DNA from: Dyella acidisoli
GTDB lineage: Bacteria; Pseudomonadota; Gammaproteobacteria; Xanthomonadales; Rhodanobacteraceae
Reading direction: 5' to 3'
Assembly (NCBI RefSeq): GCF_030160295.1
Contig: NZ_BSOB01000046.1
Span: 124,001-188,000 of the forward strand
DNA length: 64,000 bases
This document shows positions 26,482 through 47,043 of this stretch, in pieces. The position numbers and the translations under genes are program-made. Position 1 is the stretch's first letter; every line of letters starts with the position of its first letter. The notes below the pieces were generated by a model, which saw nothing but the letters and a program-made list of their open reading frames with translations, was not told where the DNA came from and searched no databases.

Positions 26482-26784
26482 CCCATTCGATGGCGGTGGT
26501 TATTGAAGCAGGATAGGCCACCGGCCATGTATTGATCATCGGGTTTACCGGCTCGCTTCGCGGCTTCTTCCGATCGACTCAACCCACTATACCGGGTCTT
26601 GTGCGCACACCGATAAAGTTGATCACCCGAACCAATCTTTCATGATCAGCGCGCCAGCATCCTGACTAGCGGAAGGCCATCGGCCGGAGTTGGCCAGGGG
26701 CAGCTATTGAACACGGGATTGCGGCCCATCTATCGAATCAGACCACAGCGGCCGCGCAGACCTGCTCTGTCTTATAGTTTGGCC

Positions 26785-29700
26785 ATGTCTTCCGCTCACG
26801 AATCGTTCTTGGCAGCACTAACTGGTCTGAGCAAAGACCAGATTCGGCAAGCTGGGCAAAGATACACGCCCGGGCTGGATCCTCGAGCGCCGAATCTGAG
26901 GATCAAATCGCTCTTCACCGCGATCGAGAACGTCGCCTGCGGGGCGGATGCTTTAGCAAGATTTCAGTCGATCCTTGATGCGTTTTCTCAGGCTTGGGAC
27001 CGTGCCGAGCACTGCAGCCAGCACCGCGCCGAAATTGAGGCGCGAGTAAACGATGCCCGTACATCCTTGTCAGCGATATTAACGCGTCTTCGTGCACGCG
27101 ACGCAGAGGCAGGAAATGAGTGGTTGGATCGGCTTTCCGGCATTGAAGGCGAACTATCGGCGGATCTGGCGCACTGGCGTGCGGAGGAAGCCAAGTTGCA
27201 GCCGGCCGACGCCGAAAGCGGCTACTCCCCTGTACGCAACACTATTCGAGGCAACATGAACGCCATCGATCGGTGTTTGGTCATTGTGCGTGATGAGAAG
27301 GAGTACATCCAGAGCGCGGCATTCAAAGTCCTGTTTGATCCGCAACTTCTGGTGAGCGGTGAGTGGGGCACGGGAAAGACACATCTGCTGTGCGATGTCA
27401 CTCAAGATCGAATCGGTCGCAACCAAGCGACTGTCCTTGTTCTGGCCAAGAACTTCCAAGGCGGCGTCGTTTCAGAAATCTGTGCGCGGATTGCGCCAGG
27501 GTGCACTCCGGCTGAGGTATTCGATCGACTCGAAGAATTGGTTGAGGGAACCGCAGAGCGCGCAGTCATTATCCTTGATGGCGTAAACGAAGGTCGTCGT
27601 CGTGAATGGCGAGAAACTGTCACCACTCTTCAAGCACTCGTTGCAGACCGCCCGAACATTGGGTTGATCGTTTCGTGCCGGACTCCGTTTGAGCCCATCG
27701 CCATAAGGCAGAAAGACCTAGAAAAATTTCATAAGGTCGTGCACCTCGGGTTCGACGATCAGGAATTCGATGCTCAGGCAGCCTTCTTCCAGTACTACAA
27801 CCTTCCGCTACCGGAAGTGCCGCTGTTGGACAGGGAATTCGCGCGCCCGCTCACGCTGAAGCTCATCTGTCAATCACTCCAGAACCTTACAGGCAAGAAG
27901 CTGGCGAAGGGTTTTGCAGGTATTGCATCGGGGCAAAGGGGAATGACTTATGTCCTCGAATCGTTCGTTAATCGCGTTGGCGAACCAATTGAGCGCGAAT
28001 TCGGTCTGGCGGCCAAGGGATGTTGGAGACTGTTGAAGGGAAGTGATCAAATTGCAGACAGGCGGGTCGCCGGGTTCGCACCGTGCATGGCGGCAAATCT
28101 GCGCGGCTATGTTCGTCGATCGGAGGCCGATCGCATCATCGCCGCTAGCTGCTCAGCGTTGAGACCGACGCAGCGCCGCCAGCTCCTTGATGTGCTGCGA
28201 ACAAACGGCCTCATCGAAGAGGATGCCGTCTGGTACTCGACTAAATCTGGATTCAAATCCCGGGTCGTCTTCCGACTTCCCTATCAACGATTCAGCGACC
28301 ACTTGATCGCACGACATTTGCTTAAGACATATCTCGATGTCTCTTCGGCTGTAACAATCAAGCGAAGCTTTGCAGCCAAATCACCCCTTGCGCGCATCTT
28401 CCGTATGCCCCGACGCTACCACCACGAGTACGCGGAGCCGGGTTGGGCACAGGCGTTAATTACGGAATTTCCAGAGCGTGTGGGGAAGCGACTACCACAC
28501 AAGAAGCGCGAGCTGTTTTTTGTTTTGCCCAAGCGAGCCCAAAACTTGAATGCCTACTTCGCGCCATTCATCGAAGGGATGTTTTGGCGCGACCCTGCAG
28601 CGTTCACTGAAGGAACGCGGGCCGTCATTAATCAATATCTGAACACTGGGTCGCGGGCATGGGAGCGAATGGTTGACGCATTGGCCGCCGTCTCCACCAA
28701 GCCTAACCATCCGTACCATGCCAAGCGCCTGTACGATTTCCTGGCGCATTATCCGATGCCGGAGCGCGATCTTCAGTGGTCCGAATATCTTCGGCGACGG
28801 TACGCATCGCCCACCATTCATAGACTGCTAACTTGGGCGGATAAGCTCAACGCAGCGAATATGACACAGCCCTCTGCGACTGAACTCGTTGTACTTCTCT
28901 CTCTGGTCCTTACAACGGTCGTTCGCAGCGATCGCGATCTAGCAACAAAGGCGCTTGTGTTGATCGGCGAAAGGTTTCCCGATGTGCTATTCACCCATGT
29001 CGTAACGAGCCTTAGATTCAATGATCCTTATGTGCCGGAACGCATGTTGGCGGCTGCGTACGGGACGACTTTGTCCCAAGTGGACTCGGAGTCGGCATCG
29101 ACGTTTCGACCTCAACTTGGGCGCCTCGCGAAAACCCTGTATCGAAAGATGTTCGCCTCCGGCGCACGTTACGCAACACGCCAGATTCTGATGCGAGACT
29201 ACGCACTCGGCATCATCCAAATTGCGCAGCGCGCGAATTGTGTTGCGCTACCCAAAGCCGCGATCCGAGATCTTGCACTGCCATTTCCGAACACATCTTC
29301 GACCTTTACCAGTGACGGCACACCTGATCCAGGCGTGAAAGAAGCTATCGGTCATGCCATTCAAATGGATTTCGGCAACTACACGTTAGGACGCTTGATC
29401 CCTGACCGGGCGAACTACGACGAAAATAACCCAGACTACGTAAGAGTCCGCGCGAAGATCGAACGACGCATGTTCGACCTGGGGTACCGAGCAAAGCTGT
29501 TCAAAGAGGTCGATAGGGAGATCGGCAATTCATCTTGGAATGCACAGGACCAGCAGAAGGTGGATCGGTATGGAAAAAAGTACTCATGGATTGCCTACTT
29601 CGAGATGTGGGGGGAGCGCGAGGCCGGGAGAAAGTTGCCGGACTGGCGTTTCGGTGAGAGAACATCAGATTGCGGTGTTGATCCAAGTTTTCCGAAACAC

Positions 29701-30678
29701 CCACCTGACTGGACGCCACCAATTCCTGACCTGTTTGGTGAATCAGACGTCGTCACCGAAGCCTGGGTCGAGGGTGGCTTCACACCGAACTGGAGTTCGT
29801 TGCTCGTGGTCCCTGAAATCAATGGGCATCCAGGTGAGTGGGTGCTCGTGGAGGGATTCATTCGCGGGACCGACGAGAGTCACGATCGCGAGCTCTTTGC
29901 CTTTTTGCGTGGAGTGTTTATCCCACGCAAAGAGGTAAGCAGTTTCAGGGAGAAGTTCCTTGCACTTGAGTACCCCGGGAACGACAAGATCCCGGATGGA
30001 GCTACGGACTACTATCTCTATGGAGGGGAGGCTGGACGTTGTCAGAACTATGCGCGGCAACTATGCCAGAGGAACGGCCGTTATCGTCGACAAATCGTGG
30101 AGGCGTTCGATCGACACGAGCGCGTGTATCCACAGGAGAAGACTTCGCGTGCCGTCATCAAAATCAATCCGATATCTGGTGAAGCAAAGGAGACAGGCAT
30201 TTCGTTTCGAGAACTACTCGGCCCGATCCCGAAAACGCGTCATGTCCCGGGCATCCGCCTTGAACTTCCGTTCATTCACTTTGGTTGGGAGTCTTACCAT
30301 TCGGCGCACAACGATTTCTTAGGTTTCACTCTCCCAGCGCCCAGTTTGATTCAACGGCTTGGCTTAGCGAGCAAGAATCGTGAGATCGATTTCTACGATT
30401 CAATGGGCAACCCCGGGACGCTCTATCGAGAGGCGGGAGACGGGTGGAAGGGAGATCGGCACCGCCTCTTGTATGTTCGTGCTGATCTCCTTCGGCGTTA
30501 CCTGGCAGACACGCGCCAAGTTCTGGTCTGGTGCAACTGGGGTGAACGAAACTGGCTGAAGAAGATGGAAGGTCACGCCGTGATCCGCGAGCCTGTCAGG
30601 CAACGGATCTACCAAGCTCATGGCCATATCCACCGCTCATTTTCGGTTTGGTCTGCTAAGGACTCGAAAGTGGTCTAG
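26785..30678 (+). CDS. Large STAND/NACHT-like NTPase, candidate anti-phage sensor
   Basis: 1297 aa from the ATG at 26785; a TTG at 26707 would add 26 residues. The N-terminal part (AGQRYTPGLDPRAPNLRIKSLF) resembles the RYTP-type start of some large defence ATPases. Walker A GEWGTGKTH lies near residues 192-200, Walker B VIILDGVNEG near 258, and an arginine-type sensor IVSCRTPF near 297. The remaining 900 aa are mostly helical, as in STAND sensors whose C termini recognise phage proteins. I see no recognised N-terminal effector domain, so the separate HEPN-like protein may be the effector. Its start follows that gene by 300 bp. Confidence 0.75.
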   Translation: MSSAHESFLAALTGLSKDQIRQAGQRYTPGLDPRAPNLRIKSLFTAIENVACGADALARFQSILDAFSQAWDRAEHCSQHRAEIEARVNDARTSLSAILTRLRARDAEAGNEWLDRLSGIEGELSADLAHWRAEEAKLQPADAESGYSPVRNTIRGNMNAIDRCLVIVRDEKEYIQSAAFKVLFDPQLLVSGEWGTGKTHLLCDVTQDRIGRNQATVLVLAKNFQGGVVSEICARIAPGCTPAEVFDRLEELVEGTAERAVIILDGVNEGRRREWRETVTTLQALVADRPNIGLIVSCRTPFEPIAIRQKDLEKFHKVVHLGFDDQEFDAQAAFFQYYNLPLPEVPLLDREFARPLTLKLICQSLQNLTGKKLAKGFAGIASGQRGMTYVLESFVNRVGEPIEREFGLAAKGCWRLLKGSDQIADRRVAGFAPCMAANLRGYVRRSEADRIIAASCSALRPTQRRQLLDVLRTNGLIEEDAVWYSTKSGFKSRVVFRLPYQRFSDHLIARHLLKTYLDVSSAVTIKRSFAAKSPLARIFRMPRRYHHEYAEPGWAQALITEFPERVGKRLPHKKRELFFVLPKRAQNLNAYFAPFIEGMFWRDPAAFTEGTRAVINQYLNTGSRAWERMVDALAAVSTKPNHPYHAKRLYDFLAHYPMPERDLQWSEYLRRRYASPTIHRLLTWADKLNAANMTQPSATELVVLLSLVLTTVVRSDRDLATKALVLIGERFPDVLFTHVVTSLRFNDPYVPERMLAAAYGTTLSQVDSESASTFRPQLGRLAKTLYRKMFASGARYATRQILMRDYALGIIQIAQRANCVALPKAAIRDLALPFPNTSSTFTSDGTPDPGVKEAIGHAIQMDFGNYTLGRLIPDRANYDENNPDYVRVRAKIERRMFDLGYRAKLFKEVDREIGNSSWNAQDQQKVDRYGKKYSWIAYFEMWGEREAGRKLPDWRFGERTSDCGVDPSFPKHPPDWTPPIPDLFGESDVVTEAWVEGGFTPNWSSLLVVPEINGHPGEWVLVEGFIRGTDESHDRELFAFLRGVFIPRKEVSSFREKFLALEYPGNDKIPDGATDYYLYGGEAGRCQNYARQLCQRNGRYRRQIVEAFDRHERVYPQEKTSRAVIKINPISGEAKETGISFRELLGPIPKTRHVPGIRLELPFIHFGWESYHSAHNDFLGFTLPAPSLIQRLGLASKNREIDFYDSMGNPGTLYREAGDGWKGDRHRLLYVRADLLRRYLADTRQVLVWCNWGERNWLKKMEGHAVIREPVRQRIYQAHGHIHRSFSVWSAKDSKVV

Positions 30679-35413: not shown

Positions 35414-35971
35414 TCATAGGCCTGCGCGGGCGAAGTCCATGCCCGTGATGCCATGCTCTTTGATCTGTTGTTCGAGCAGAGCCTTGCCGCCGTCATTGAC
35501 GTAAATACGGCCGGTCACGGTCAAAGGGTCTTTGAACACGGCAGGTTCGGAAGGAACGGCCGACGTATTGAAGACCTCATCCTGGATAGCGCCTGACGCG
35601 CGTCTCTTGCTTCGCTTAGGATCAATACAGGACACCACATTGGTGACGTTGTAGTAATACTCCGTTTCCCCTTCAACGTCGATTTCAAGCAGTTGCCCAA
35701 ATCGCGACAGAAAGCCCCCTAAAGCGTCCCGGGCTTTTTGATTAAGCACCAAGACACCGAACAAGAACGGGGTCAGGTCGGTTCGCGGCTTGGGTGTCTT
35801 GCGTCTTGAGTCACCTTTGTCCCGAACCAGGCGCATTGGTTCATTCCAGACGACGGGTTTGCCCTCTCCACCGAGCTGCATTAACAGGTCGGCGTCGCCC
35901 TCCGCTTCGGGAGGCAACACTATGGTTTCAACCTTGTTGATAAGGTCATTAGTGATTAGCCAAACGGTCAC
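35414..35971 (-). CDS. Imm11-family immunity protein
   Basis: 185 aa. A central FLFGVLVLNQKARDALGGFL, GQLLEIDVEGETEYYYNVTN and CIDPKRSKR order matches the DUF1629/Imm11 family of polymorphic-toxin immunity proteins. It starts inside the last codons of the nuclease gene (4-bp ATGA overlap), as toxin-immunity pairs usually do. It should bind the AHH nuclease and protect its producer. A broken relative lies at 1040-1635, so the locus may have had several toxin-immunity pairs. Confidence 0.8.
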   Translation of the reverse strand: MTVWLITNDLINKVETIVLPPEAEGDADLLMQLGGEGKPVVWNEPMRLVRDKGDSRRKTPKPRTDLTPFLFGVLVLNQKARDALGGFLSRFGQLLEIDVEGETEYYYNVTNVVSCIDPKRSKRRASGAIQDEVFNTSAVPSEPAVFKDPLTVTGRIYVNDGGKALLEQQIKEHGITGMDFARAGL

Positions 35972-36723
35972 GGCCTATCGTCCTTACGATAAGGGAAGGT
36001 TCCAAAAACGAGGTCTTGCTTGATGTCGCGAAGCTTCCCGCGCCCGGCATCGCTATCGCTGGGAGATGCCTGACGGAGCTCATTGAAAACGGCAAGGTGA
36101 TACACAGCGGTATGCACGACTGAATGCCTGGTGGCGCTTTTAAGGCGGCGATCGATGACTGCCACCTTTTTGTTGCGGGGAAGGAAAACGCCGTTATCGA
36201 CATCGTCGATACCAATGCCCCATCCATAAAGGCGTATACGGGATGGGGCGGCGCCCTTGGCACGTGCAGACACAATGTGATGCGCGTCGACCTGGCCTCG
36301 CGGTTTGACTTGTCCCGCCGCAATCATATTTTTGCCGAGAACATCAGAATGGCTGAAATTCTTGCGTTTTGCATCGGCTTCCAAACTTTTCTTCGATACA
36401 GGCAAGGTCTTGCCTTTATCGTCGTATTGAACCTTCTCGACGGGTTCCAATTCCTCGACCGCTGCGTAGAACCTCGGGTGCGCGATCTGGTCTGCCTGGA
36501 ATGTTGTTTGAGCCGATGATGGCAGCACCATGCCGTTCTTTTGGCAAACCACCATTTTGACTTTGGTAAGCCAAATCGTGTGGACAAGTGCATAGGGATT
36601 TACGCGCTCTTGCCCAGCTCCGCCACCGTGGTACATCGTTGCAACGACGTACAAATCCGTCAGACCTGCATATTGCTGCTTGAACGGATTGACTCGTTCT
36701 GTCGAACCAAGTGCACTTGCCAT
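35968..36723 (-). CDS. AHH-family nuclease toxin
   Basis: 251 aa from the ATG at 36723, which has GGAGGGAG 2 nt upstream; the longer frame to 36828 is unlikely. The N-terminal 140 aa carry no known delivery domain. The C-terminal part has the AHH signature of HNH/EndoVII-type nucleases: VDAHHIVSA (His148/149), WGIGIDDVDNGVFLPRN, and RHSVVHTAVYHLAVF. Such nucleases cut DNA or RNA and are delivered by type VI or other export systems. It is paired with the Imm11-type gene. No secretion genes are in the window, so delivery is unknown. Confidence 0.85.
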   Translation of the reverse strand: MASALGSTERVNPFKQQYAGLTDLYVVATMYHGGGAGQERVNPYALVHTIWLTKVKMVVCQKNGMVLPSSAQTTFQADQIAHPRFYAAVEELEPVEKVQYDDKGKTLPVSKKSLEADAKRKNFSHSDVLGKNMIAAGQVKPRGQVDAHHIVSARAKGAAPSRIRLYGWGIGIDDVDNGVFLPRNKKVAVIDRRLKSATRHSVVHTAVYHLAVFNELRQASPSDSDAGRGKLRDIKQDLVFGTFPYRKDDRP

Positions 36724-36832
36724 ATCTCCCTCCGTTGGACGGCCAATGTTTCCGCATAAGGCAGCGGCACGAGCCGGGTCGCGTTGAACCGATACATGAG
36801 AAGTCGGGCAAGCATACTGAAAATGCACAAAT

Positions 36833-37034: not shown

Positions 37035-37649
37035 ATGAGCACGCTAACGGATTGCCGGGTCAAGAGCTGGAATCAGACCACCCAGATTATCGATGCCGCC
37101 TTTCCCCACGCCCTGGATCTAAAGGGTGGGGTCTGCTACGGCAGCTGTGTCGAATGGCTCAAGCGACTCCGACAGGTTCCCCATGAGAGCCCGGACCATC
37201 GGATGGCCTACGTGTCTTCGCAAGCAAAGCTGATCGGCGGCCGGCAGCGTCTTTACGAGTCGGCTCAACGGGATGTAAAGGCCAGAACCGACGACTTCAC
37301 CGCAGCCGTCCATTTCCAGGTCATGAATCGACTGATCCAGATCGGTAAATTCGGCATGAGCATCGAATTCGTCGACGGCGGCGCGGAATTCACCCAGCTT
37401 GCCGACGCCTTGCCTGCGATGCGGAACGGCAACATGCCCTACGCGATGATCAACATATCCACGTTGAGTGGCGGGCACGCGATTTGTGCGCAGAACGCCG
37501 ATTCTATTCGTCTGTTCGATCCCAATTTCGGCGAGTTCGTCATCGGCGATGGCGACCTCGAAGCGTTTTTCGGTGATCTATCGTTGGCGAGCGCGCTCAC
37601 TGGCAACATGTACCTGTTTGTCAATGTGGCCCAGGTGAGCTTCGCTTGA
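37035..37649 (+). CDS. YopT-like (peptidase C58) cysteine protease domain protein
   Basis: 204 aa. Cys34 in KGGVCYGSCVEWL, His148 in STLSGGHAICAQ and Asp162 in RLFDPNFGEFVI give the Cys-His-Asp triad layout of YopT/AvrPphB-type proteases, including the small-residue-plus-Cys start of the first motif. Members are bacterial effectors that cleave host or target proteins. There is no signal peptide, export is unknown, and no immunity gene follows. It lies among toxin genes and palindromes, so an effector role is likely but unproven. Confidence 0.75.
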   Translation: MSTLTDCRVKSWNQTTQIIDAAFPHALDLKGGVCYGSCVEWLKRLRQVPHESPDHRMAYVSSQAKLIGGRQRLYESAQRDVKARTDDFTAAVHFQVMNRLIQIGKFGMSIEFVDGGAEFTQLADALPAMRNGNMPYAMINISTLSGGHAICAQNADSIRLFDPNFGEFVIGDGDLEAFFGDLSLASALTGNMYLFVNVAQVSFA

Positions 37650-37673: not shown

Positions 37674-37717
37674 CCGGGACAGAGGTAGTCAGCTCTATTT
37701 AACTACCTCCGTCCCGG
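37674..37717. repeat. CCGGGACAGAGGTAGT palindrome (family copy G)
   Basis: CCGGGACAGAGGTAGT / ACTACCTCCGTCCCGG, a 16-bp stem with one mismatch, 24 bp past the protease stop. It is the most complete member of the family. Confidence 0.75.
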
Positions 37718-37788: not shown

Positions 37789-37821
37789 TGAGGTGTTATA
37801 TGAGCTTAACTACCTCCGGCC
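37789..37821. repeat. GAGGTGTTA / TAACTACCTC palindrome cut by IS (family copy H)
   Basis: Palindrome ending in TAACTACCTCCGGCC at the left edge of the IS4-type element. The 9-bp target duplication is part of it. Confidence 0.65.
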
Positions 37822-39165
37822 CTGAGGTTTCCCCACGTTTTCATGTGGCAGCAAGGCTTGGTTGCAAGGTCTCGTAGGCGAGCGATCGTAGCCGTGCGAG
37901 ACATAGCCACCCAGGGTTGATGGGCCAGTCCCTAACAATCGCTTCGCGGCCTACCCGAATAATGGAATAGAGTCTTCGCATTGAGCGTGTAGGCGACAAC
38001 CAATGGGTGATCCCCGAGGCATCGCAAGCCAGACCCACAAGCCAGCTGGCGAATGACGCCATGGCATGGACCAGCAGCAGTATCTCGATGCGTGCGCTGC
38101 TGCGGGTAAGGCTATCTTCAAAGCCTTGTCCATAGCGATGGGACTTCAGATCGCGAAAGGACATTTCAATCTGCATACGCTTGGCATAGATATTCACCAA
38201 CTGCCTGGCATGAAGATTCAGTTCCGGCGAAGCGACAATCAGCCATGGCTCACGTTCGCGGGCCGCCGCCTGGCGACTGTTCTTCTGGCGTGAAATAAGC
38301 CCCAACCGATTGCAATCCTTGCGACCACGTGGTGCCTTGCCATAGACAGCCAACCGGCAGACCCATCGCGTCGCCCGTACGGTTTCCATCAAGCCCATGT
38401 CACGGGGCGTCGTGGTCGCCAGTGCGTAGAGGTCACGACAAGCTACCCACTGACTATCTTTATCGATGACCCCGACGGGTTTGACCAAAGTGCGATGCCG
38501 TAGTCGACCAACCCAGTGCCAGCCTAAGGATGAGACCGTTCGAAACCACGGGGTAAGGAAACCTGCATCGGTCACCAGAATCGGGCATACCTGCGGCGGA
38601 AGCAACGATCGCAAGGCATGCAGAAAGCGCTTATGGGCCTTAGGTGCTCCGAGCTCTTTACCCGGAAAAACCATGTCTAGAATCGGCAATGCGCGTCCAC
38701 CCACCGGTACTGCAGCTCGCAGCAGGCACCAGGATCGATCAGCCTTCAAGTCCGACCAGTCAATCACGATGAGAGGGTGTTTCGCTCGCAACAGCCATTG
38801 CGCCATATCGGCATAGATCTGAAATCGTTCTTGGTGGAGATGGCGGTTACTCAACAGTCGATCAAATGCTTTAAGTGGTGCTTTGACGCGTTCGGCACCG
38901 GGCCAAGAGCGTGCGACATCCATCAATGTCAGGCGCCGCCCTCGTAGCAGCGCTTCAACGGAACGCACTAATACATGGTTTCGCAACGCATGCATTGCAC
39001 CTAACGACCTGGACATACACTTCTGCAATACTCGACTCGCGCGCATGGGCGGCACTCTTTATTGTGCTTGGTCGCCTTGAAGAATGCGCCATGCGCGCAC
39101 TCTTATGCCACTCGGTACCGCCGTAAGTCGTTGATTGATCCACTAGAAACGTGGGGAAACCTCAG
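37822..39165 (-). mobile_element. Complete IS4-family insertion sequence, 1344 bp
   Basis: Both ends are visible: CTGAGGTTTCCCCACGTTT at 37822-37840 and its perfect inverted copy at 39147-39165. The 9-bp target duplication CCTCCGGCC flanks it at 37813-37821 and 39166-39174. One transposase gene fills it. The target is a GGAGGTAGTTAA-type palindrome. Intact ends and duplication suggest a recent event. Confidence 0.92.
37841..39046 (-). CDS. IS4-family transposase
   Basis: 401 aa from the ATG at 39046; a GTG three codons earlier is also possible. The DDE core is visible: Asp in IVIDWSDLKADR, Asp in LVTDAGFLTPWF, and the IS4-type Y-x2-R-x3-E-x6-K signature in YAKRMQIEMSFRDLK. The N terminus (VLVRSVEALLRGRRLTLMDV) has the usual helix-turn-helix. 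The frame is uninterrupted and the ends are intact, so the element could still be mobile. Confidence 0.93.
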   Translation of the reverse strand: MRASRVLQKCMSRSLGAMHALRNHVLVRSVEALLRGRRLTLMDVARSWPGAERVKAPLKAFDRLLSNRHLHQERFQIYADMAQWLLRAKHPLIVIDWSDLKADRSWCLLRAAVPVGGRALPILDMVFPGKELGAPKAHKRFLHALRSLLPPQVCPILVTDAGFLTPWFRTVSSLGWHWVGRLRHRTLVKPVGVIDKDSQWVACRDLYALATTTPRDMGLMETVRATRWVCRLAVYGKAPRGRKDCNRLGLISRQKNSRQAAAREREPWLIVASPELNLHARQLVNIYAKRMQIEMSFRDLKSHRYGQGFEDSLTRSSARIEILLLVHAMASFASWLVGLACDASGITHWLSPTRSMRRLYSIIRVGREAIVRDWPINPGWLCLARLRSLAYETLQPSLAAT

Positions 39166-39297: not shown

Positions 39298-40023
39298 CTA
39301 ACGTGATATGGCAACTTCAGACATAAACTTCACAAGGTCACTAGCAACATCATAAAAAGATCGCCCAGCAATTGCGTTGCATAGTGTATTTACCCCAATT
39401 TCAAATTTTACACCACGCCTCGGATTAACGACGCACAATCTGTCAATATTGAATCGATGTCTAGAGTAATTCAAACATATATACGTAAATACCTGCCTCA
39501 AATCTTGAGATCGAAACCCACGATCCCCCCCTTTCAATTCGCACAATGCATCTCTTACTAGCAGATCGCCCTCGCCTTCTGAAACCATACCACACCCTGG
39601 AAAAAGCGGTGAAAATAGAAAATCCCCCTGCCCTCTTTCAGAGACAATAAAACGAAGAATCGACTTAGAAAGATCCACTACCTCATCGATCTCGTAACCA
39701 GCAATACTCGAAATATCTTTCACAGCACGCTTTTCGAGAGGTGCAATTTTCGCAATTGCCGAAATTTCAGCCTCCTTAACCAAATCCAAGTAAGAATACC
39801 TCTCAACCCCTATATCAAGCGCAGAATTCTGTGCCGCCATACGGGCAGTTATGAATGCCGCCTCGTTAATCAACGCCCTTCGATCGGGTGCCGAGTTGCT
39901 AGCAATTGCATAGTCGTAGCGCATCGGATTCAAGTTAACACGTCTTATAAACTGGTCTGCCATCGGCAGTAAATTCCGCCAATACGACGAAAAGCGTCTG
40001 GCAAACGTGCGTTCAGACATCAT
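39298..40023 (-). CDS. PD-(D/E)XK-type nuclease partner of reverse transcriptase
   Basis: 241 aa. Asp153 in EGEGDLLVRD and Glu162-x-Lys164 in ALCELKGGDR, with Gln173 in FRSQDLRQVF, reproduce the PD-(D/E)XK endonuclease site, followed by a helix and a LCVVNPRRG strand. The N-terminal 120 aa are helical and unrecognised. Its ATG overlaps the last codon of the reverse transcriptase gene, so the two are translationally coupled. A role as DNA-cleaving effector of an RT-based defence system is an inference. Confidence 0.75.
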   Translation of the reverse strand: MMSERTFARRFSSYWRNLLPMADQFIRRVNLNPMRYDYAIASNSAPDRRALINEAAFITARMAAQNSALDIGVERYSYLDLVKEAEISAIAKIAPLEKRAVKDISSIAGYEIDEVVDLSKSILRFIVSERGQGDFLFSPLFPGCGMVSEGEGDLLVRDALCELKGGDRGFRSQDLRQVFTYICLNYSRHRFNIDRLCVVNPRRGVKFEIGVNTLCNAIAGRSFYDVASDLVKFMSEVAISR

Positions 40024-41621
40024 AGAGGGAGCTCCGCGATAGATCTGCCCGCAACATTCTGGGATGCCCAGTCCCGAACAACCAACTCGAACGGCGTCAA
40101 TTCATCCTTTACGTGATTGCGCCAATGCCTTCCCTCATCTCCTAGCAAGTAATGGGAAACAATGAAAGCTCGACGCTCCCATACTCCCATAGAATGGAAG
40201 TAACTCTTTCGATCGGATATCCAGTAGCTTGCAAGCCACTTTGCCATTATCAGCAAAATATCTCGCCGTATTACTTCACTTGTTGACGAACGATAAAGCT
40301 GGGCAAGAATTGCCTCAAGTTCGTCACTACGTCGCAAAGCGATGACGCGCAGCGCATACGCGATATTAAGATCGATTTTTGACAAATGCGAATCTGATTT
40401 AATCAATCCGCCAAGAACTAGACCAACTTCTTCCTTTGTCTGATCATCAAGATCACTAAATGCCTCTCGAATAGCAAGCATGACGGCTCCAAACACTGGA
40501 GCGAGCGAGTCTAGGCTACGAAGCATAGACAGCACAGCATCACGCTTCTGAAGCGATGGGAGAAATTTGATTGCCTGAATTATCTTCCTTGTTGTTGGCC
40601 CATGAACCCGGCTCTTACGAAGCTCTTTAGTCAAGAGGCCATTGATGTCAAACCTTGCAATTTCGCTCCGGAGAATCTCATAGTCTTCTACAGCATTGGG
40701 CGAATAAGGATCAAATTGAAGAGATAGTCGAAGAAGTGAAGCGGAATCGGCTTGCTCAGCATCTTCATCTTCCAACTCAGAAGACGCCAAGAACTCTCTC
40801 GATGACATGATTCGAGTTTTCATCTTCTGAAGCGACAGACCCTCGTTGACCAACAGCTTTTCTGATATGTAGACAAGCGCTCGATAGGCATCCTCTTCAG
40901 TCTTTGCAAAAATGTGATAGTCGTCTGCAAAACGGCAAAAGCACAATCCATCAGAAACTAGCAACCTATCTGTTCGGTTCAAAACCAATTCTGACAACAG
41001 CCTCGACGCGGGCCCTCCCACAGGAAGACCATACGAAGCATTGTTCGAAAATTTCTGGAGTAAAGTCATTATTCGCTGGTGAATTCCACCACCAGAATTG
41101 AGCTGAAGAAGAGCATTGTCGAGCCGATGGTGATAAATACGAGAGTAGAAATCTGCAACATCACATACCAACACCCATTGAAACTGCTTTGCATGCTCTA
41201 TCGATTGGGCCTGAAAGCTCCGCCAACCATGTGCCGGGTCAAAAAGTGCGCCAGACTGAGCATCTGGCGCAAATCGATAGGAATGAACTATGCCGCGGTT
41301 GACATGTAATCTCGCCGCCTCGATAGAAGGCCCAAGCTCGATAACCATGGATAGAAGATACGCATTCCAGAGCGGATCAATTTGAGTAGCCCATCTGAAG
41401 CCTGTATATCCAACCGGCGCAAGAGCGCTTTGGTTCACCGGTGCATATCGACTCAAATGTTCGTCAAATGAATGATGCACTGCCTTTAATTGCTCTTGAA
41501 TTAAGTCAGGCCGATCTTCAAATATTCTGTTTTCAATGGGAAATGGAAAAACATCGGTGTCACCGAAGCGCGCAACATTTTTTACAGCCAAACGAAAGCT
41601 ATTTTCCACCCTATCCCCCAC
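40020..41621 (-). CDS. Reverse transcriptase of the defence-associated/UG type
   Basis: 533 aa. RT motifs are in order: RWATQIDPLWNAY, motif A VCDVADFYSRI (Asp154/Asp157), GLPVGGPASRLLSELVLNR (198-214), and the catalytic FADDYHIF (231-238) in place of YxDD. After the palm the last 270 aa are helical, as in Abi and 'unknown group' RTs whose C-terminal alpha-solenoid replaces the X/thumb domain. No maturase domain or group II intron RNA features are seen, and no retron msr/msd is evident. The PD-(D/E)XK partner follows directly. Low GC compared with its neighbours suggests transfer. Confidence 0.85.
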   Translation of the reverse strand: MGDRVENSFRLAVKNVARFGDTDVFPFPIENRIFEDRPDLIQEQLKAVHHSFDEHLSRYAPVNQSALAPVGYTGFRWATQIDPLWNAYLLSMVIELGPSIEAARLHVNRGIVHSYRFAPDAQSGALFDPAHGWRSFQAQSIEHAKQFQWVLVCDVADFYSRIYHHRLDNALLQLNSGGGIHQRIMTLLQKFSNNASYGLPVGGPASRLLSELVLNRTDRLLVSDGLCFCRFADDYHIFAKTEEDAYRALVYISEKLLVNEGLSLQKMKTRIMSSREFLASSELEDEDAEQADSASLLRLSLQFDPYSPNAVEDYEILRSEIARFDINGLLTKELRKSRVHGPTTRKIIQAIKFLPSLQKRDAVLSMLRSLDSLAPVFGAVMLAIREAFSDLDDQTKEEVGLVLGGLIKSDSHLSKIDLNIAYALRVIALRRSDELEAILAQLYRSSTSEVIRRDILLIMAKWLASYWISDRKSYFHSMGVWERRAFIVSHYLLGDEGRHWRNHVKDELTPFELVVRDWASQNVAGRSIAELPL

Positions 41622-41661
41622 TTAGTGTCATTCTCGAATAAAAAGCCCGGAATCCGTACCT

Positions 41662-41692
41662 GAGGTAGTTAACTTGGCTTAACCGCTTCCGT
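41662..41692. repeat. GAGGTAGTTAA palindrome (family copy I)
   Basis: GAGGTAGTTAA / TTAACCGCTTC with CTTGGC loop, between the reverse transcriptase start and the membrane protein stop. Family member with a mutated right arm. Confidence 0.65.
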
Positions 41693-41721
41693 CCCTGAAG
41701 TTTCTCTTTCCCATTCCGCAT

Positions 41722-42135
41722 TTACTTGACAAATATCGCCAAGATGCAAGCAACAGCGAGCCAGCCCGCTGCGACAATTGCAAGCATCTGTTTTGTGTAA
41801 AAGAAAAAGTGCCGCAAAGGGTTTTTAGGAAATTTAACCGTGGGCGAAGGGTTGTCCGCGTTTTTCAGCGCACGTGCCTTTTTGTACGCTCGATAGTCGA
41901 CAAAGTAGCCAACGAAGTATTGTAAAAGATCAAATGCGAGCGCGAGTAACGAAAGAAAGGCAATCGTCACCAACTCCCACTCCGAAATCTTTGCGAGCAG
42001 CGTTGGGGAATCCTTGCTTCCCGAAATAAATAGCCACGCAACAGCGAGCACGCCAAGCGCAACAGTCCGCACCTGCGTTGAAATTTGAGTGCTGAGCAAA
42101 TCGAGTCGCTGACTTGCTTCCTTTAAAGTCGCCAT
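41722..42135 (-). CDS. Small membrane protein upstream of the reverse transcriptase
   Basis: 137 aa from the ATG at 42135. The N-terminal coil (EASQRLDLLSTQISTQVR) is followed by three hydrophobic segments: TVALGVLAVAWLFI, LVTIAFLSLLALAFDLLQYF and MLAIVAAGWLAVACILAIF. I do not recognise a family. It is co-directional with the RT and nuclease genes, but a palindrome lies in the 100-bp gap, so operon membership is uncertain. Confidence 0.6.
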   Translation of the reverse strand: MATLKEASQRLDLLSTQISTQVRTVALGVLAVAWLFISGSKDSPTLLAKISEWELVTIAFLSLLALAFDLLQYFVGYFVDYRAYKKARALKNADNPSPTVKFPKNPLRHFFFYTKQMLAIVAAGWLAVACILAIFVK

Positions 42136-42259: not shown

Positions 42260-42586
42260 TTACCTACGAGCAGCCTTTTTCGCAGCGGCTTTCCGTGCCA
42301 TTTTTTTTGCCACGGCTTTGCGCATAGTCTTCTTTGCGGCCACCTTACGCGCTGACTTCTTTGCAGTTGCCTTTCTGGCTGCTTTCTTTGCACTAGCTTT
42401 GCGAGCCGCCTTCTTCGCCGAGACCTTTCGCGCGGCCTTCTTCGCTACCCTTCGTGGAATTTTCTTGGCAGCAGCCTTTTTCTTCCCAACTCGCTTCGCG
42501 GCGGCCTTCCTGCGGCGTACAGGTGTGGAAGTAATTAGCGGGCCATCCCAATCTTCATCGCCACCATCACTATCGATTGAACTCAT
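42260..42586 (-). CDS. Histone H1-like Lys/Ala-rich DNA-binding protein
   Basis: 108 aa from the ATG at 42586. After an acidic start (SIDSDGGDEDWDG) the rest is a degenerate repeat of KKAARK / AAKKx units, the hallmark of bacterial H1-like proteins such as Hc1/AlgP-type tails. It would bind DNA nonspecifically and affect chromosome compaction. The repeats at DNA level vary, so they are probably protein-driven. Its neighbours give no further clue. Confidence 0.8.
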   Translation of the reverse strand: MSSIDSDGGDEDWDGPLITSTPVRRRKAAAKRVGKKKAAAKKIPRRVAKKAARKVSAKKAARKASAKKAARKATAKKSARKVAAKKTMRKAVAKKMARKAAAKKAARR

Positions 42587-42632: not shown

Positions 42633-42676
42633 ATGGGATCAGAGTGCTTTTTAGATAAAAGGCACTCTGATCCCAT
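42633..42676. repeat. ATGGGATCAGAGTGC palindrome
   Basis: A perfect 15-bp stem (ATGGGATCAGAGTGC / GCACTCTGATCCCAT) with 14-nt loop, related to the unit at 34963-35017. It overlaps the last codon of the small lipoprotein gene. Confidence 0.75.
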
Positions 42677-43182: not shown

Positions 43183-46100
43183 TTACATATTGCGGCGGTA
43201 TTCACCGCCGACTTCGTACAGCGCGTGACTAATCTGCCCCAAGGAGTTGTACTTCACCGCCTCCATCAACTGCTCAAATACATTCTTGCGTTCCCTCGCA
43301 GTGTTCTGCAGTGTCTTCAAGCTTTCCGGCGCCAGCGAATTACGAGCTTTACCGAAGGCTTGCACGTTTTCGATCTGCTGGCCTTTTTCTTCTTCCGTCG
43401 AACGAATCAACTCGATCTCGGTCGCAATTTCGCCACCATGATCCTTCGGCAGGAAGGTGTTGACGCCGATCAGCGGCAGGCTGCCATCGTGCTTCTTGTG
43501 CTCGTAATACATCGATTCTTCTTGAATCTTGCCGCGCTGGTACATGGTGTCCATGGCGCCGAGCACGCCGCCGCGTTCGCTGATGGCTTCGAATTCCTTG
43601 TAGACGGCTTCTTCGACGAGGTCGGTGAGGGTGTCGACGATGTAGCTGCCTTGCCAGGGGTTTTCGTTGAAGTTGAGGCCGAGTTCTTTGTTGATGATCA
43701 TCTGGATGGCTACGGCGCGGCGCACGCTTTCTTCGGTGGGCGTGGTGATGGCTTCGTCGTAGGCGTTGGTGTGCAGGCTGTTGCAGTTGTCGAACAGTGC
43801 GTACAACGCTTGCAGGGTGGTGCGGATGTCGTTGAACTGGATTTCCTGCGCGTGCAGGGAGCGGCCGGAGGTTTGGATGTGGTACTTCATCATCTGGCTG
43901 CGGGCGCTGGCGCCGTAGCGTTCGCGCATGGCGCGGGCCCAGATGCGGCGGGCGACGCGGCCGATGACGGTGTATTCCGGGTCCATGCCGTTGGAGAAGA
44001 AGAAGCTGAGGTTCGGCGCGAAGTCGTCGATGTGCATGCCGCGCGCGAGGTAGTACTCAACAATGGTGAAGCCGTTGCTGAGGGTGAAGGCGAGCTGGCT
44101 GATCGGGTTGGCGCCGGCTTCGGCGATGTGATAGCCGGAAATGGAGACCGAATAGAAGTTGCGCACCTTGTGGTCGACGAAGTACTGCTGGATGTCGCCC
44201 ATCATGCGCAGCGCGAATTCGGTGCTGAAGATGCAGGTGTTTTGCGCCTGGTCTTCTTTCAAGATATCGGCCTGCACGGTGCCGCGCACGGTTTGCAGGG
44301 TTTCTTCCTTGATGCGTGCGTAAGTGGCAGCGTCGACGAGTTGATCGCCGGTGACGCCGAGCAGGTTCAAGCCTAGGCCTTCGTTGCCCTTGGGCAGATC
44401 ACCGGAGTACGCGGGGCGCTTTTTGCCAGCGAAGAGTTCGTCCATGCGCTTTTGCGCAGCGGACCAGCGCGCGGAATCTTCCTTGAGGTATTTCTCCACG
44501 TTCTGGTCGATCGCGGTGTTCATGAACATCGCGAGGATGATTGGCGCGGGGCCGTTGATGGTCATCGATACAGAACTGGTCGGCGCGCTGAGGTCGAAGC
44601 CGGAGTACAGCTTCTTCATGTCGTCGAGCGTGGCGATGTTGACGCCGGAGTTGCCGATTTTGCCGTAGATGTCCGGGCGCGGTGCGGGATCTTCGCCGTA
44701 CAGGGTGACGGAGTCGAACGCGGTGGAGAGGCGCGTGGCGGCGCCGCCTTGGCTCAGGTAATGGAAGCGGCGGTTGGTGCGCTCGGGCGTGCCTTCGCCC
44801 GCGAACATGCGGGTGGGATCTTCACCGGTGCGGCGATACGGATACACGCCGCCGGTGTACGGATAGTGGCCCGGTAGGTTTTCGCGCATGAGGAAGCGCA
44901 GTTGATCGCCCCAGTCTTTGGTTTTGGGCGGCGACACTTTGGGAATCTTTTGGTGGCTGAGCGATTCGCGGTAGTTCTCCACGCGGATCACTTTGTCGCG
45001 CACCTTGTATTCGTTCACGTCGTCGGTGACGGATTTATAGAGCTTGGGCCAGTCGCGCAGCAGGTGCAGGGCTTCGTGGCTGAGTTCGCGCAGGGCGGCG
45101 TTGTAGCGTTGGCGCAGAACTAGAAGTGAACGATCTACCGACCCCTGCTGTGTTTCTGCTTTTAAGTCGTGCGCTTCGCGCGGCGTATTTGACTGGATCC
45201 CGGCCTGCGCCGGGATGACGACATGAAGATCGTCGTGCTCGTAACGCTCCAGCTGGCGCGGGAGTTTTGGGTCGCCGATTTCTTTCAGCGATTCGTAGTA
45301 GTGCTGTGCCTTGCTGGCGAATTCGGCTTCGCGTTCGATCTCGGCGTTGATGCCCCTGCCCTGCTCGGCGATTTCGGCGAGGTAACGCACGCGTGCGCCG
45401 GGAATCAGCACGGTGGCGCGCGGTTCTTTCAGCGTCACGTCCAGGTTCGGCTTGAAATCGCAGTGCGTGGTTTCGATGGCGTGCTCGCTGCCCTTGGCAG
45501 TGAGCTTGTTGCGCAACAGGCGGCACAGGTTGGTGAACATCCAGGTGACGCCTGGATCGTTGAACTGGCTGGCGATGGTGGGATACACCGGCACGTCTTC
45601 GTCTTTCAGGGTGAAGGCGTTGCGGTTGCGCTTCCACTGCTTGCGCACGTCGCGCAGTGCGTCTTCGGCGCCGCGCTTGTCGAATTTGTTGAGCACGACG
45701 AGTTCGGCGAAATCGATCATGTCGATTTTTTCGAGCTGGCTGGCGGCGCCGTAGTCGCTGGTCATCACGTAGACGGGGAAATCGACGAGGTCGACGATTT
45801 CCGAATCGCTCTGGCCGATGCCGGCGGTTTCCACGATCACTAGATCGTACGGCTGGCTCTTCAAGAAGTTGATGCAGTCGTGCAGCACTTCGTTGGTGGC
45901 AGCGTTCTGGCGGCGCGTGGCCATGGAGCGCATGTATACGCGATGGCTGCGCAGCGCATTCATGCGGATGCGGTCACCCAGCAGTGCACCACCGCTGCGG
46001 CGGCGCGTGGGATCGACGGCGAGCACGGCGATGCGCATCTGCGGGAAGGCGTGCAGGAAGCGCAGCAGGAGTTCATCCACCACGGACGATTTACCCGCGC

Positions 46101-46749
46101 CGCCGGTGCCGGTCATGCCGAGCACGGGCGTGTGCTTGCCGGCCAGCGACCATTCCTTGCGTAGGCGCGCGAGTTCGGCTTCGCTCAACTTGCCTTCTTC
46201 GATGGCGGAGAGCGTGTGGCCGATGCTGATTTCGTCGTCGATGTTGATGGTGGCCGGAACGATGGCTTCGTTCTGCTCACGCTTGGCGGCAGCGTTGCCG
46301 GCGCGGTGCATGACGTCTTCGATCATTTCCACCAGGCCGAGCTTCATGCCGTCGTTGGGGTGGTAGATGCGCTCCACGCCGTAGGCTTGCAGTTCGCGGA
46401 TTTCCTCCGGGGTGATGGTGCCGCCGCCGCCGCCGAACACGCGGACGTGGGCGGCGCCCCTCTCCTTGAGCATGTCCACCATGTACTTGAAGTACTCGAC
46501 GTGACCGCCCTGGTAGGAGGACAGCGCGATGGCGTCGGCGTCTTCTTGCAGCGCAGCACGAACCACGTCTTCCACCGAGCGGTTGTGGCCCAGGTGAATC
46601 ACTTCCGCGCCCTGCGATTGAATGATGCGGCGCATGATATTGATGGCGGCATCGTGGCCGTCGAACAGGCTGGCGGCCGTGACGAAGCGCAGCGGACTGG
46701 TTTCAGCCTGCGCGGAAGTGGCAGGAACGTGCTTGGCGGGGGAACTCAT
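43183..46749 (-). CDS. icmF: Fused acyl-CoA mutase (isobutyryl-CoA mutase, IcmF)
   Basis: 1188 aa from the ATG at 46749 (GGAG upstream). Order of domains: B12-binding ([16 protein letters not shown], then [14 protein letters not shown]; about residues 20-140), a MeaB/ArgK-like G domain ([16 protein letters not shown] near 211, then [18 protein letters not shown]), and the mutase TIM barrel ([33 protein letters not shown]-terminal [18 protein letters not shown]). It interconverts isobutyryl- and n-butyryl-CoA with its own GTPase chaperone. It is about 90 aa longer than usual, mainly through an in-frame repeat at 45191-45222. A single-gene unit. Confidence 0.93.
45191..45222. repeat. REP-like unit inside the icmF reading frame
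   Basis: GACTGGATCCCGGCCTGCGC followed by CGGGATGACGAC, the dispersed GTCATCCCGGCG unit in reverse orientation. In the frame it reads [11 protein letters not shown] at about residues 509-520 of IcmF, between the G domain and the mutase domain. Confidence 0.85.
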
Positions 46750-47043
46750 GGGGACTCCGAGAACGGTATGTTCCAAACGCAACCATTCTAATGGCCTTAC
46801 CTGTTAAACGGGTGCTTGCGTACGTGGGGCCGTGTCGAAAGATGGCGTGGGCTTCTCGCAACGGTGAGCGTGGATTGTTCAAACTACTTGAGTTGCCATG
46901 GATGGCACGTTGCCGTTCATGCCCGTCACGCCCGTGAGGGAAGGCAACTTTCATGGCGACCTGCGAATTTCAAGTTCCATCCAAATTTACTAAGCAGCGT
47001 TTCGAAATCGGCGTTACTGGATGCACTTTCAGGAGGAATCTTT
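46750..47043. other. Divergent intergenic region, icmF / symporter
   Basis: 294 bp holding both promoters. I see no gene or repeat family member. The final 20 bases include the AGGAGG site of the symporter. Confidence 0.5.

Follow-up and report, generated by a model that had tools for sequence, protein, structure and literature searches.

In a 64,000-nucleotide stretch of the Dyella acidisoli genome (contig NZ_BSOB01000046.1, positions 124,001 to 188,000; the window), a reverse transcriptase (RT) gene is followed directly by the gene of a PD-(D/E)XK nuclease. The RT stop codon and the start codon of the downstream nuclease gene share 4 nucleotides, ATGA (Table 1). Judged by its sequence, the pair is almost certainly a DRT8 anti-phage locus, DRT8 being a system that we take to be group UG7, and its function in this strain is predicted. 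We find a Drt8-family RT, an adjoining PD-(D/E)XK gene, and intact active-site residues in both the RT and the nuclease. The G+C content at the locus is about 0.46, against at least 0.53 in the adjoining 2-kb windows.

Table 1. Features of the RT-nuclease locus and its surroundings, in positions of the window
Feature	Position	Strand	Remarks
Drt8 reverse transcriptase	40020-41621	minus	533 amino acids, GTG start; PADLOC Drt8, Pfam RVT_1, active-site residues
PD-(D/E)XK nuclease (RTasPDDEXK)	39298-40023	minus	241 amino acids; D153, E162, K164, Q177, Y181
ATGA shared by the RT stop and the nuclease start	40020-40023	minus	read from the sequence
Membrane protein open reading frame	41722-42135	minus	upstream of the RT; real as an open reading frame
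Protein resembling histone H1-like Hc2	42260-42586	minus	small, lysine/alanine-rich, repetitive; below curated cut-offs
IS4-family element, complete	37822-39165		transposase 37841-39046; directly behind the nuclease gene
Avs2-like STAND protein	26707-30678	plus	PADLOC Avs2, 527 bits; match starts at profile position 180
AHH-type nuclease domain protein	35968-36828	minus	same variable region
Peptidase_C58 domain protein	37035-37649	plus	same variable region

The RT carries the active-site motif RFADD (R230-F-A-D233-D234) together with D154, and residues D154, D233, and D234 are invariant in an alignment of 7 RTs. In PADLOC-DB of 2023 it matches Drt8 with 545.9 bits over nearly the whole profile, the runner-up family being RT_UG21 with 117 bits, and its sole Pfam match is RVT_1 at residues 139-277. 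Residues 288-522 of the predicted structure are entirely helical, and the model aligns along its whole length (440-463 residues) with DRT4, DRT6, and AbiK. The model and these whole-length matches display the RT domain with a helical-repeat C terminus by which class 1 of the UG/Abi RTs is recognized, suggesting a class 1 architecture and supporting the assignment of the protein to the defence RTs of the UG/Abi kind.

The partner matches RTasPDDEXK of the same database with 192 bits, again over nearly the whole profile, and this family is matched by all 13 aligned partners. The D, E, K, Q, and Y of the motif D-x8-E-x-K...QxxxY (D153, E162, K164, Q177, and Y181) are invariant in the 13 sequences, as are P20, N30, P139, G143, L160, F170, D174, L184, and N200, while G152 is almost invariant. 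The motif set of RecB/Cas4-like enzymes (D, ExK, QxxxY) is therefore present in 13/13. The predicted model shows moderate resemblance to known folds, highest to RecB/Cas4/Dna2 nucleases, with ACE1, AddB, AdnA, MGME1, Dna2, and RecB as top matches, a list from which a missing family may still be a relative. Searches with the nuclease against Pfam, NCBIfam, and PDB sequences were uninformative, and no RecB or Cas4 family among the Pfam or PDB sequences matched it. A single one of the 13 members matched Cas4a2, at 0.0013, and 12 weakly matched the defence candidate PDC-S61. The four Fe-S cysteines of Cas4 proper have no counterpart, as no cysteine stands in an invariant or near-invariant column of the 13 sequences.

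A preliminary description of this DNA had proposed a defence RT of the UG/Abi kind with FADD at its active site and a long helical C terminus, whose stop codon overlaps the start of a PD-(D/E)XK nuclease with D153-x8-E162-x-K164. The 533-residue protein, its predicted model, its Drt8 profile match, the ATGA overlap, and the invariant D, E, and K agree with each of these points. It had also suggested looking for a known DRT class with the same nuclease partner, for conservation of E-x-K among homologues, and for co-occurrence of the nuclease gene with the RT; DRT8 is such a class, E-x-K is conserved in 13/13, and the nuclease gene accompanies the RT, always overlapping, in 13 of 20 distinct loci. 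The pairing had further been suspected to be undescribed, a view that we reject, and its novelty falls because both proteins match named DRT components in PADLOC-DB of 2023 and a passage of a 2025 paper characterizes DRT8 by a PD-(D/E)XK domain (PMC12596737). The observation was thus correct, but on these matches the system was already known. A literature search on DRT8/UG7 returned no title or abstract opening devoted to the DRT8 mechanism, and the primary classification paper is said to be that of Mestre and others (2022).

Relatives were drawn from genome contigs, viral contigs, plasmids, and further genomes. The nuclease lies directly behind the RT in 13 of 20 distinct loci on chromosomes, plasmids, and prophage and satellite contigs (the window, L002, L009, L010, L011, L012, L013, L014, L015, L017, L018, L051, and L052); in L012 the nuclease is retained, but the RT survives only as a fragment, located behind an IS3 element. 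No open reading frame with the nuclease motif was found in the other 7 (L007, L008, L022, L023, L024, L053, and L056). Outside this count stand L016, L019 (a near copy of L013, with nuclease), L020 (a short partial match), the plasmid matches H2, H7, and H9, and L047, L048, L049, and L057 from E. coli, which are relatives of L015 and all have the nuclease, annotated as a hypothetical protein. Gene order and overlap are kept in 13/13 loci, the overlap being 4 nucleotides in 8 and 11 in 5, lengths that rest on start codons of our choice with alternatives possible in several (the L010 record starts the nuclease later). Because dedicated models score the two proteins at 546 and 192 bits, the nuclease residues are invariant, and order and overlap are shared by all 13 loci, the pair is real and not due to chance. 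The contig of L002 is labelled Nostoc; its RT groups with RTs of the window's phylum and its other genes look proteobacterial, so that it is perhaps a contaminating contig in a Nostoc-labelled assembly.

RTs without the nuclease score 444-534 bits to Drt8 (5 of the 7 scored; L053 and L056 left out), and a match to the PADLOC Drt8 RT model by itself is therefore no proof of a nuclease partner. An unrooted tree of 18 RTs places all 12 full-length RTs that have a nuclease partner on one side of a branch with support 88/92, which becomes 99/97 without the long row L024; in a tree that included two very distant outgroups and had one row (L007) truncated, the nuclease-bearing RTs did not form one side of a branch. 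Since the 18-RT tree is unrooted, it does not decide between gain and loss of the nuclease. Of 12 computed comparisons among relatives (5 saturated and 2 nearly identical), the remaining 5 gave omega values of 0.035 and 0.050 for the RT and 0.053, 0.079, and 0.090 for the nuclease, with high synonymous divergence in 2 of the 5; where omega is readable, both genes are under purifying selection. As a side observation, at L008 (3986-7671) the nuclease-less Drt8-like RT lies between an upstream DUF87 protein and, downstream, another RT gene of a different kind, and the nuclease-less Drt8-like RTs of L022 and L053 are closely related to it; these loci possibly represent another RT-based arrangement.

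The nuclease family was found in 1/197 genomes of the window's family, its own, and in 4/398 genomes of the phylum, strongly in its own and weakly in three others (L004-L006). No RT lies in the stretch examined at these three, which look like other PD-(D/E)XK proteins. The RT was found in 4/398 phylum genomes at E 1e-30, in 1/369 genomes of the class at 1e-60, and in 4/385 genomes of another class at 1e-60, with the nuclease in L051 and L052 and without it in L053 and L022. A relative of the L015 pair occurs in 105 of 5,426 complete E. coli genomes, chromosomal in every case, where each site covers at least 80% of the two-gene query; 60 of the 105 records were listed and 4 opened, and an integrase gene lies under the match in 59 of the 60, among the matches listed. 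On viral contigs the pair has prophage-like surroundings and directly follows a tyrosine integrase in L014, L015, and L017. The neighbours in L048 (E. coli), a polarity suppression protein, an ogr/Delta-like gene, and a primase-helicase, form a set that we take to be like that of P4-type satellites. Scans of viral contigs with a single RT sequence or with the nuclease alignment, and of phage records with the nuclease, gave nothing useful.

The flank beside a conserved gene at 43183-46782, read by us as a fused CoA-mutase, varies among the genus relatives fetched (10 of 15), and the RT-nuclease cassette was not found at the corresponding place in any of these 10, which is why we regard it as cargo in a variable place. 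The Avs2-like protein seems from its profile match to lack the usual N-terminal part; its gene and the RT pair together give the region the appearance of a defence island. The IS4-family element has 19-bp perfect inverted ends and a 9-bp direct repeat, CCTCCGGCC, on either side. A 17-base motif, TTAACYNCYTCCGKCCC, has four copies genome-wide, three of them here (37699-37715, 37806-37822, and 41679-41695), the last lying between the membrane gene and the RT. The membrane protein upstream on the same strand, to which the preliminary description had drawn attention, holds as an open reading frame; its membership in the system is not supported, as 31 comparison loci, several with only about 1.5 kb of flank, yielded no homologue in a tblastn search at E 0.01. 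The histone-like protein, a repetitive query, gave a single match in the same search, in L023. We rejected both genes as parts of the system on this basis.

Space for a noncoding RNA is small in several loci. The RT start lies within the integrase gene in L014 and L015 (8 nucleotides of overlap) and in L017 (about 20), and the space upstream of the RT is about 50 nucleotides in L051 and 125 in L013, the latter having 47 downstream of the nuclease; we count as roomier the window, with 100, and L049, with about 316. Rfam returned nothing credible around the window pair, a result that leaves room for an RNA within the genes. Up to E 0.1 the only row was a microRNA family of animals, which scored far below the gathering threshold and lay over an inverted repeat at 42633-42676; it was rejected. 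The little upstream space and the lack of an Rfam match fit class 1, to which no noncoding RNA is ascribed and whose members are described as making untemplated DNA (PMC13174585, PMC12632851).

How might the two proteins work together? We tentatively favour, with less than even confidence, a nuclease effector controlled by RT-made DNA. In this view the RT would be a polymerase of class 1 type, independent of any noncoding RNA, whose DNA is protein-primed and untemplated; this DNA, attached to the RT assembly, would set the activity of the co-translated PD-(D/E)XK nuclease. Infection would alter the DNA or the assembly and release the nuclease, which would then cut DNA and stop both phage and host. 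The analysis itself shows the gene pair, the intact catalytic residues in both proteins, the conserved coupling, and a predicted RT structure with class 1 architecture. The steps that we infer are synthesis without a template, regulation of the nuclease by the resulting DNA, and the trigger; RT-made DNA may govern the nuclease much as the DRT1 nitrilase is governed by untemplated DNA (PMC13275509). The partner slot also looks exchangeable, which counts for an effector, because there are nuclease-less loci, a table lists the PNP effector Cap17 with DRT8 (PMC10952713), and a membrane-like gene lies behind the RT of L024.

Several points weigh against this. AbiK, among the nearest structures, reportedly acts without a nuclease partner. 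The same is described for DRT4 and DRT6, also among the nearest structures, in a passage of PMC13213688. Three loci retain the nuclease frame although their RT is broken: a Comamonas plasmid, E. coli EN-1077 (IS3 element), and E. coli O177:H21 (a shortened RT frame, with sequencing error possible). A nuclease freed from control should be harmful, except if its activation depends on the RT. Additionally, the model's resemblance to single-strand-processing RecB/Cas4-type enzymes would also suit degradation of the RT product.

That function is the core of a close rival to the effector, which we consider possible: the RT-made DNA would itself be the toxic product, and the dedicated RecB/Cas4-like partner would act as a built-in restrainer that keeps removing it, until phage proteins allow the product to accumulate by blocking such nucleases or shielding the DNA. 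The partner would then play the part of the host enzymes RecBCD (for DRT3) and ExoI (for DRT9), which are described as restraining the products of those systems (PMC13174585), and a phage protein is likewise described as protecting the DRT4 product (PMC13213688). The invariant D, ExK, and QxxxY argue in the same direction, QhxxY being conserved in Cas4 and further RecB-like nucleases (PMC4625639), as do the best structural matches, from ACE1 to RecB. Among the loci opened, the three with a broken RT and a kept nuclease have no converse; since the RT gene is 2.2 times as long, such a three-of-three pattern has a chance of about 1 in 3 and is weak. On balance we still favour the effector. It is somewhat doubtful that DRT8 is a self-contained make-and-destroy circuit, in which toxic DNA made by an untemplated RT is cleared by the system's own RecB/Cas4-like nuclease. 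If true, the locus would encode the poison together with its guard, a role for which other DRT systems rely on host enzymes (RecBCD, ExoI), and phage anti-nucleases or DNA-binding proteins would trip the circuit.

Restriction and other defence systems often employ PD-(D/E)XK nucleases, and the partner could attack incoming DNA in a restriction-like manner, with the RT as a second layer and no mutual control. The nuclease frame that outlives RT loss in three loci and the weak PDC-S61 matches of 12/13 members would suit such independence. However, it is improbable, as the overlapping genes in 13/13 loci and the single switch on the RT tree suggest a joint function, and no modification gene stands beside the pair in the loci opened. 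That the pair is a degenerate cargo cassette with no defence function, as its absence at this place from the 10 genus relatives fetched, the presence of the nuclease family in 1/197 genomes of the window's family, and the IS4-family element directly behind it might suggest, is very unlikely given two open, full-length frames with conserved residues and the purifying selection on both genes in relatives.

The Dyella locus is thus an ordinary DRT8, useful since passages of two 2026 reviews credit DRT8 with phage resistance and describe its mechanism as not established (PMC13213688, PMC13314766). The main question it raises is the working of DRT8 itself, not the pairing, and a testable contrast sets an RT of class 1 type, coupled with a RecB/Cas4-like nuclease, against Drt8-like RTs without the nuclease. 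The RT domain and helical C terminus are shared with DRT4 (UG15), DRT6, and AbiK, of which AbiK is reportedly a single-gene system, unlike the Dyella RT and nuclease. DRT4 and DRT6 are described in PMC13213688 as single-gene systems, whereas the Dyella locus has a nuclease gene after the RT. DRT1 likewise couples an RT to an enzymatic partner, an effector controlled by untemplated DNA, but its nitrilase is fused in one protein of class 3 (PMC13275509), in contrast to the separate nuclease gene and the predicted class 1 fold in Dyella. From RecB/Cas4/Dna2-type enzymes the nuclease differs in having no conserved Fe-S cysteines, no helicase part, and no sequence-profile similarity. The closest likeness is to DRT8, with which the locus shares both genes, their order, near whole-profile PADLOC matches, and the PD-(D/E)XK partner described in PMC12596737, and from which it differs by sequence divergence alone, the nearest RT relative found (L052) being 47% identical.
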